DNA of 64,000 bases from Mytilus galloprovincialis (taxonomy: Eukaryota; Mollusca; Bivalvia; Mytilida; Mytilidae), in assembly GCF_965363235.1 (NCBI RefSeq), contig NC_134844.1, positions 96,186,664 to 96,250,663 of the forward strand, read 5' to 3'. The translations under genes were made by a program, and so were the position numbers. Position 1 is the first letter of the stretch, and each line of letters begins with the position of its first letter. The notes below the pieces were generated by a model, which saw nothing but the letters and a program-made list of their open reading frames with translations, made no database searches and was not told the origin of the DNA. Of this stretch, positions 62,601 to 64,000 are shown piece after piece.

Positions 62601-64000
62601 TACACTTTTAAACAAGTTGTGTCTGAAAGTCAAACGTCTTTGGTAGCAATGCAACATCACCATACAATTATACAGCTGCCAATATTTTGAAATCTTATAA
62701 AATTTAAGACATTACCCTTTCCCTCTCTCTAATCCTGTTAAACACCATCTCAGAGTTACCTACCCTTTCCCTCTCTCTAATCCTACTGAACACTGTCTCA
62801 GAGTTACATGGAAGTGGTATAAATCTTCCCATTCCTTGTGTTACTCTCACCTATAAAAAAGTGAAATAAAGTGAATATTTATTGCATACAGAGAAATTTA
62901 TCATGTGTTGTCAGACCATGACTTTGAGAAAACTCCTCTGAAGTATGAAATCTTTAAATGTACAATCATTCATATCAAGTTACATGTTTATCATATTTAT
63001 GTTTATTTTTTTTTCTAGGCCAGTTTATGAATACTGTATACTGAAGTAAGTTGGATGTGATCTTATTCCTTTTTAGTCTGGAAAAATAATGTTTAATCAA
63101 TAGCTGATATTGTTTTTGTACAAATTTTCAGGTATTGCTGGTACTCTCAGATAATTACTTCATATATATATTTGATGTTTCTCTTTAAAAGTCTTTATAA
63201 AACTTGATACATGTTTAGACACACTATTGACTAAGACTGTAAGTTGAAATCTAAATGTCTTCTGGTTATTGTGTGTTGTTTCATTGATGCATTTCACATT
63301 TCACAAAACACAAAACATGTCATTCCCTCAAAGATATTGAAGTTTACAGCTTTATTGAATACTTACCTGTCCCTCATCTAAAACAACATGGCCTTTTGTC
63401 ATGACATACTCTGCAACACCATGACATAACATTCTCTCAAAGATATTGAATAATACTAACCTGTCCCTCATCTAAAACAACATGGCTGTTTGTCATGACA
63501 TACTCTGCAACACCATGACATAACATTCTCTCAAAGATATTGAATAATACTAACCTGTCCCTCATCTAAAACAACATGGCCTTTTGTCATGACATACTCT
63601 GCAACACCATGACATAACATTCTCTCAAAGATATTGAATAATACTAACCTGTCCCTCATCTAAAACAACATGGCCGTTTGTCATGACATACTCTGCAACA
63701 CCATGACATAACATTCTCTCAAAGATATTGAATAATACTAACCTGTCCCTCATCTAAAACAACATTGCCATTTGTCATGACATACTCTGCAACACCATGA
63801 CATAACATTCCTTCAAAGATATTGAATAATACTAACCTGTCCCTCATCTAAAACAACATGGCCGTTTGTCATGACATACTCTGCAACACCATGACATAAC
63901 ATTCCTTCAAAGATATTGAATAATACTAACCTATCCCTCATCTAAAACAACATGGCCGTTTGTCATGACATACTCTGCAACACCATGACATAACATTCCT
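59618..64000 (-). CDS. CRMP: CRMP/dihydropyrimidinase-like protein, C-terminal four exons (partial)
   Basis: On the - strand four exons join in frame: the exon ending in the 63366-64000 array ([10 protein letters not shown] ... VVLDEGQ), 62850-62764 (VRVTQGMGRFIPLPCNSETV ... RIRERER), 62033-61844 (TTKPCKVEREPYDGPVAKIT ... GARNLQDSTFSLSG) and 59703-59618 (QQIDEKSPRRSTTRSLNPPG ... SSGLW, stop TGA). This follows the C-terminal order of dihydropyrimidinases (NxFE-M-CHG, VTxGxGRFIP, VERxPYxG). The RNLxxSxFSLSGxQID-PRR-TTR-PPGG tail is the hallmark of collapsin response mediator proteins (DPYSL), cytosolic tubulin-binding regulators of axon guidance. The catalytic domain lies outside the window. 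If the third exon is not spliced at 61843, translation ends 3 codons later (GK-stop). No - strand start is expected here. Confidence 0.85.
60130..60890 (+). repeat. About 77-bp tandem repeat with (TA)n in the last CRMP intron
   Basis: Three copies at about 60679, 60755 and 60832 of 'GTCAATATCCATTGAGAAAC' with 'ACTTATATACTGTGGATTGC' and 'TTCCTATATCCCATATATAT'. A related single unit starts at about 60148. Between them 60180-60300 holds four 'GCGATGGT' motifs ('AACCGCGATGGTTACACTGA', 'GAAGTGCGATGGTGGTATTG'). Confidence 0.75.
61540..61680 (-). repeat. Dispersed repeat, inverted partner of 51440-51600
   Basis: 'GATCGATTGATTGTTGGTGA' and 'GGAGGAAAACTGACAATTCT' mirror the + copy. It lies just 3' of the CRMP 61844 donor. 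The open frame at 61682-61978 on the + strand is antisense to the CRMP exon. Confidence 0.55.
61844..62033 (-). CDS. CRMP: CRMP exon with VERxPYxG and FSLSG motifs
   Basis: 190 bases, phase 0 in, phase 1 out. The acceptor is TTTCAG just above 62033; the donor is AGTG|GTAAAT at 61843. In-frame read-through gives GGT AAA TAA, so intron retention would make a shorter tail lacking the QQID-PRR-PPGG peptide. The middle part (EKMIVADNPIIPNNAEFHGR) is a species-specific linker without clear family match. Confidence 0.85.
62716..62850 (-). CDS. CRMP: CRMP exon with a duplicated 3' end and two donors 48 bases apart
   Basis: Starts after TTATAG at 62850 with VRVTQGMGRFIPLP. The segment CNSETVFSRIRERER with its GTAGGT donor (62763) is followed by a second copy, GNSEMVFNRIRERER, with a GTAATG donor (62715). 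Use of the first donor gives 87 bases, the second 135 bases; both stay in frame, so isoforms would differ by 16 residues, VGNSEMVFNRIRERER. The family has one copy of this segment. Confidence 0.8.
63366..64000 (-). repeat. 94-bp tandem array made of a CRMP exon end plus splice donor, at least 6.7 copies
   Basis: Units start at 63366, 63460, 63554, 63648, 63742, 63836 and 63930, the last cut by the window end. On the - strand each unit holds 81 coding bases ([19 protein letters not shown], then HVVLDEGQ) and 13 bases beginning with a GTTAGT donor (GTAAGT in the copy nearest 63366). Copies differ by only a few bases (GGCCTTTT, GGCCGTTT, GGCTGTTT, TGCCATTT). The period is not a multiple of three, and reading across a junction gives VSIIQYL and a stop, so at most one unit can be in the mature frame. 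Confidence 0.9.

Follow-up and report, generated by a model that had tools for sequence, protein, structure and literature searches.

An exon end and its splice donor arranged as a tandem array in a dihydropyrimidinase gene of Mytilus galloprovincialis

In a gene of the mussel Mytilus galloprovincialis, the end of a coding exon and the splice donor that follows it are repeated in tandem as 11 full 94-bp units on the minus strand. One unit is composed of 81 nt (27 codons) of exon end and 13 nt of intron start, and the first unit (unit 1) is the genuine end of a 180-nt exon, with which it is continuous. We consider it very probable that the array is an intronic minisatellite that grew from the exon end and is tolerated, with the first donor (donor 1) being the one in use. 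Coding sequence would have been turned into an intronic satellite without loss of the gene, under a simple rule of tolerance: when a duplication spans a donor, the first junction stays intact.

The window analyzed is a stretch of 64,000 nt (C7:96186664–96250663) from an assembly of 1.38 Gb in 331 contigs; the next 30 kb past window position 64000 were fetched to complete the array. A foot-protein-1 decapeptide gene is present in this assembly (98% identity to the decapeptide repeat), which marks it as a mussel genome, and this type of repeat points to the Mytilus edulis group.

The gene and its exons

A profile search with TIGR02033 matches successive exons of the gene on the minus strand, starting at C7:96269599 and running to lower coordinates. 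Once joined, the exons, which were chosen by eye, encode 567 residues that score 613.8 bits with TIGR02033 (cut-off 393.25). This joined protein is without the first coding exon, which was not located, and includes one small exon (..QKSSEMIQHG..) that was joined with an uncertain edge, where alignments show a one-residue gap. The protein is similar to human dihydropyrimidinase (2vr2) across the whole fold (E=2.8e-240, query 1–498), and its CRMP-type C-terminal tail is present, with CRMP2 (7u5k) matched across query 3–563. Judged by these matches, the gene encodes a dihydropyrimidinase with a CRMP-type tail, in keeping with the earlier note on this DNA, which had called it CRMP-like. The exons referred to below are as follows, the numbers 12 and 13 being our own.

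C7:96251149–96250970, minus strand, outside the window: exon 12, 180 nt, beginning GGACGTATAGC.. after ..tttatcatag
Window 62764–62850, minus strand: exon 13, VRVTQGMGRFIPLPCNSETVFSRIRERER, ending at the first of its donors (alignment and in silico joining)
Window 61844–62033, minus strand: CRMP-tail exon, TTKPCKVEREPYDGP...FSLSG (in silico joining)
Window 59618–59703, minus strand: last coding exon, QQIDEKSPRRSTTRSLNPPGGKSSGLW followed by a stop (in silico joining)

The donor-1 junction is gapless in the three alignments shown (human dihydropyrimidinase 2vr2, 4gz7, and 4h00), and the copy-1 donor junction of exon 13 is likewise gapless against these three. The unlocated first exon would fit an unexpressed pseudogene copy, with the real exon elsewhere, but the length and score of the joined product make this hardly probable at all. 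The spliced junction of unit 1 and exon 13 is also absent elsewhere: the 29-base junction, with up to 3 mismatches allowed, had no match in the genome that would mark a retrocopy recording the spliced form. Furthermore, 10 of the 20 TIGR02033 matches at E up to 10 are located in this gene, the others being on C13 (9 matches, at three places) and C5 (1 match).

Several other features of the gene were observed. A possible alternative last exon (window 60487–60560, minus strand), ending ..SLSADPFVIREYHGSPYAKKNLL and a stop and following a TATTATACAG acceptor, lies downstream of the SLSG exon and ahead of the last exon. The probable 3' untranslated region contains a 39-bp array of 7.8 copies (window 59158–59460). 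Beyond the window are two similar 121-nt exons on the minus strand, VEAEATNRAI..LYIVHVMSKSAAK (C7:96256968–96256848) and VEGEAASRAI..LYIVKVMSKTAGK (C7:96255954–96255834), which are probably mutually exclusive and have a histidine in one and a lysine in the other at a probable zinc-binding position. A similar exon pair, with a change of His to Gly at a zinc-binding residue, appears for Drosophila CRMP in the portion of PMC7954323 considered here.

The array and its donors

Within the window, Tandem Repeats Finder (TRF) detected a 94-bp repeat of 6.8 copies with 97% matches (63358–63998). The complete array has its first base at C7:96251050 and its TRF end at C7:96250021; units 1–4 and 11 bases of unit 5 lie beyond position 64000 (C7 up to 96251050). 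The earlier note had seen seven or more 94-base units, each carrying the last 27 codons of an exon and a GT donor, and had proposed extending the sequence past 64000. The extension located the first unit and the start of exon 12 (C7:96251149), and the composition described for the unit was seen in all 11. The array abuts the exon and includes the exon's donor.

Window 63354–64000, minus strand: units 11 to 6 whole and unit 5 in part (TRF and sequence reading)
Window 63367–63447, minus strand: exon-derived 81 nt of unit 11, the last unit (sequence reading)
Window 63307–63355, minus strand: decayed partial older copy in a 109-bp register, with exon bases upstream of the 94-bp unit (local alignment)
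C7:96250969, minus strand: donor 1, at the end of unit 1
Window 63365–63366, minus strand: donor 11, CAG|GTAAGT, the use of which is predicted to lead to a premature stop (in silico joining and U1 match)

The partial copy after unit 11 has a local alignment score of 53, as compared to a maximum of 33 in 1000 mononucleotide shuffles, and its different register suggests that duplication at this exon end occurred more than once. Over 24.3 kb of the gene region, tandem repeats (the 94-bp array included) account for 19% of the sequence. A search of the window with Rfam at gathering thresholds gave no matches.

Unit number in assembled tandem arrays is often wrong, and a false expansion or collapse in assembly therefore has to be weighed here. 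We give it very little probability. The units differ from each other by up to 12 of 84 bases, their order and both flanks are coherent in one contig, the scored matches are all at the array's own locus, and four donor-side exon ends in other genes carry comparable arrays (see below).

A GT is located at the donor position of all 11 units. The donor reads CAG|GTTAGT in eight of these, CAA|GTTAGT in unit 4, TAG|GTTAGT in unit 5, and CAG|GTAAGT in unit 11. As the earlier note had stated, passing from unit to unit shifts the frame and reaches a stop: 94 mod 3 is 1, and read-through of donor 1 encounters a stop ending 24 nt later (..DEGQVSIIRYL, then the stop). We joined exon 12 in silico to exon 13 from each of the 11 donors, and the frame is open with donor 1 only. 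Donors 2–11 (10/10) all lead to one common premature stop, which lies 70 to 916 nt upstream of whichever donor is taken. Under the 50–55-nt rule, transcripts with a stop that far before the junction would be targets of decay. Thus none of the later donors can stand in for donor 1. A splice-buffering array, which had been among the suggestions, is rejected on this basis, as is the idea of spare donors, the donors also being no better kept than the rest of the unit. The description of later units as potential decoys in the following intron does hold.

Pairing with the 5' end of U1 was scored as duplex energy: donor 1 reaches −10.1 kcal/mol and donor 11 reaches −14.0, while donors 4 and 5 are weaker, at −3.6 and −8.5. 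Of the 23 donor sites of the gene that were scored, a set covering part of its exons, donor 11 makes the strongest U1 match. As donor 11 is stronger than donor 1, leakage to later donors is plausible, and stop-bearing isoforms are possible. Most likely, donor 1 alone is in use and the remainder of the array is tolerated intron filler, although the dominance of donor 1 in RNA is itself an inference from genomic sequence.

The anatomy of the mussel array resembles that of two human cases. In the parts of PMC5954066 considered here, intron 18 of ABCA7 contains a variable number tandem repeat (VNTR) of 25-bp units, each opening with a splice donor. When a later donor is used, one unit stays in the transcript, which shifts the frame and leads to a stop and decay; VNTR length is correlated with both disease risk and the skipping of exon 19 (PMC5954066). 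As far as that account goes, both arrays are tandem at an exon's donor and have a donor in each unit, whereas the ABCA7 unit is 25 bp and intronic and the mussel unit is 94 bp with 81 coding bases. A donor minisatellite in IFI6 (6-16/G1P3) was reportedly described by Turri in 1995. The portion of PMC4526556 considered here likewise has a minisatellite that gives IFI6 several donors, two downstream repeat units being used as such. The mussel array likewise carries several potential donors. The three IFI6 mRNA species are described as encoding different isoforms, whereas in the mussel all later donors meet a stop. Among the literature matches listed, judged mostly without full text, none described a mussel exon-edge array.

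The ABCA7 case also bears on the possibility of a regulated switch, in which use of later donors would give stop-bearing, decayed transcripts and thereby tune the level of the CRMP/dihydropyrimidinase protein. Retention of one ABCA7 unit through a later donor gives a stop-bearing transcript, and transcripts with a premature stop rise with cycloheximide, in the part of the source considered (PMC5954066). The common early stop from all ten later donors and the strength of donor 11 are also consistent with such a switch. We regard it as unlikely, however: there is no sign that donors outlast the rest of the unit, and the array resembles the general tandem-repeat background. Among 19 distinct changes, taken for unit 11 as far as position +3, 3 fall within the nine donor positions and the remaining 16 within the 85 other positions of the unit.

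Constraint, exchange, and a proposed origin

Relative to unit 1, units 2–11 have 17 distinct exonic changes, consisting of 4 synonymous, 12 replacement, and 1 stop; the synonymous share expected without selection is 20–27%. Position 57 differs from unit 1 in all of units 2–11, which is probably due to a change in unit 1 itself, and without this position the synonymous changes are 3 of 16. A TAG is present in unit 5, and the donor of unit 4 is weak. There is no indication that later units are read or later donors kept, although 17 changes in one array provide little power. The earlier note had offered a splice-buffering array, a source of stop-bearing isoforms, and a recent neutral expansion. 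Neutral expansion is the best supported of the three, as units 2–11 are without detectable coding constraint and donor positions have changed no less often.

Unit 1 differs from unit 6 by a single synonymous base and from unit 5 by two bases. The near-identity of units 1 and 6 is a sign of recent homogenization, and exchange within the array would thus include the functional unit. Since the intronic units carry replacements such as G to R, H to N, and N to K, unequal exchange or conversion could in principle place mutated versions into the last 27 codons of the exon, making the array a source of, or a hazard for, protein variation. The recent passage of sequence between unit 1 and units 5 and 6 and the presence of these replacements point this way, but unit 1 is still a good match to homologs in the one assembly examined, and we find a reservoir role highly unlikely.

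For the tolerated minisatellite favored here, we propose the following origin. A tandem duplication across the exon-intron boundary, taking in 81 nt of exon end and 13 nt of intron, would have been followed by growth to 11 units through unequal exchange or slippage. Duplication across a donor would leave an intact exon-donor junction in the first copy, and the protein would therefore be preserved so long as the first donor is used. Units 2–11 would then be intronic, drifting without coding constraint and being partly homogenized with unit 1. If a later donor were used now and then, the exon would carry an early stop, and nonsense-mediated decay should remove the transcript; we infer both this decay of leaky transcripts and the near-neutrality of the array. 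A comparable process is intron gain through tandem duplication of coding DNA carrying proto-splice sites (PMC2891723, in the parts considered here; apparently also the subject of PMC4974935), in which the duplication is likewise tolerated because splicing removes the extra copy. It differs in that the mussel boundary was already an intron start, and the intron has been lengthened and none gained.

Arrays at other exon boundaries

The same gene has further boundary repeats. The end of exon 13 is followed by a second copy with its own donor:

Window 62716–62763, GT at 62714–62715, minus strand: second copy of the exon-13 end, 48 bp (TRF and sequence reading)

This copy is in frame, and its use would add 16 residues (VGNSEMVFNRIRERER). 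Upstream of the exon at C7:96269617, its acceptor and exon start recur as decayed tandem copies of 88 bp (C7:96269770–96269555), a mirror image of the donor arrays.

As controls we took 63 exon matches, all 13 from PF00171 and 50 of the 73 from PF00176 in list order, and counted as crossing any tandem array with a period of at least 20 that spanned an exon edge. Such arrays are present in 5 of the 63 (95% interval 2.6–17.6%), a rough rate from a small sample in which a match need not end where its exon does and one gene can contribute several matches.

L030, donor side: 47 bp, 11 units
L034, donor side: 28 bp, 6.8 copies
L069, donor side: 45 bp, 2 copies
L084, donor side: 53 bp, 7.1 copies
L045, acceptor side: 56 bp, 2.3 copies

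A Pfam search bears out the family assignment of the four donor-side exons. For L030, TRF gave 11 copies (97%) on the forward strand and a merged 32.9 copies (76%) on the reversed strand, and 11 units were read directly. Arrays at L037 and L038 are near an exon edge, not across it, and were not counted; L090 was kept among the controls despite one stop in the match frame. Boundary arrays were found at none of the nine further dihydropyrimidinase-family matches on C13.

With all periods taken together, arrays occupy 7.1% of flanks (53 loci, among them L029 on C5, E=9.67, which is left out of the 72 loci that follow). For arrays with a period of at least 20 (72 loci), coverage is 5.4% in the 100 bases that follow the match, 2.2% in the 100 that precede it, and 1.5% within the match itself. 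Five crossings at up to 126 edges (4%) are of the same order as this background, which would fit near-neutral tolerance.

These control arrays and the human ABCA7 and IFI6 precedents weaken the claim of rarity, and the array can no longer well be called unusual in this genome. The frequency of such arrays in the mussel genome is of more interest than the single array, the ABCA7 and IFI6 kind being already known. Should the frequency seen in the small control sample hold for mussels in general, exon-edge arrays would provide many natural replicates for spliceosome choice among near-identical donors, and would be a hidden trap for gene annotation. More tentatively, there may be a class of splice-boundary minisatellites at several percent of mussel exons, persisting since the first donor wins. 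Their combined effect might be longer introns, stop-bearing isoforms that arise by leakage, and a store of drifting exon-end copies beside the functional one, by which that exon end could be replaced through exchange.

Other repeats were observed in passing. A 94-bp repeat of 2 copies at window 45288–45476 contains TTATTTCAG|GATCTG, which looks like the acceptor and exon start of a Tyr/Ser/Cys-rich open frame on the plus strand; the shared 94-bp period is probably coincidence. A 75-bp array of 10.2 copies (25 codons per unit) at window 13712–14477 is open for >200 residues on each strand. Lastly, very similar kinase-domain open frames (PF00069 matches) form tandem clusters at C1:45763305–45812657 and C3:92336287–92352768, often ~1.7–1.9 kb apart.
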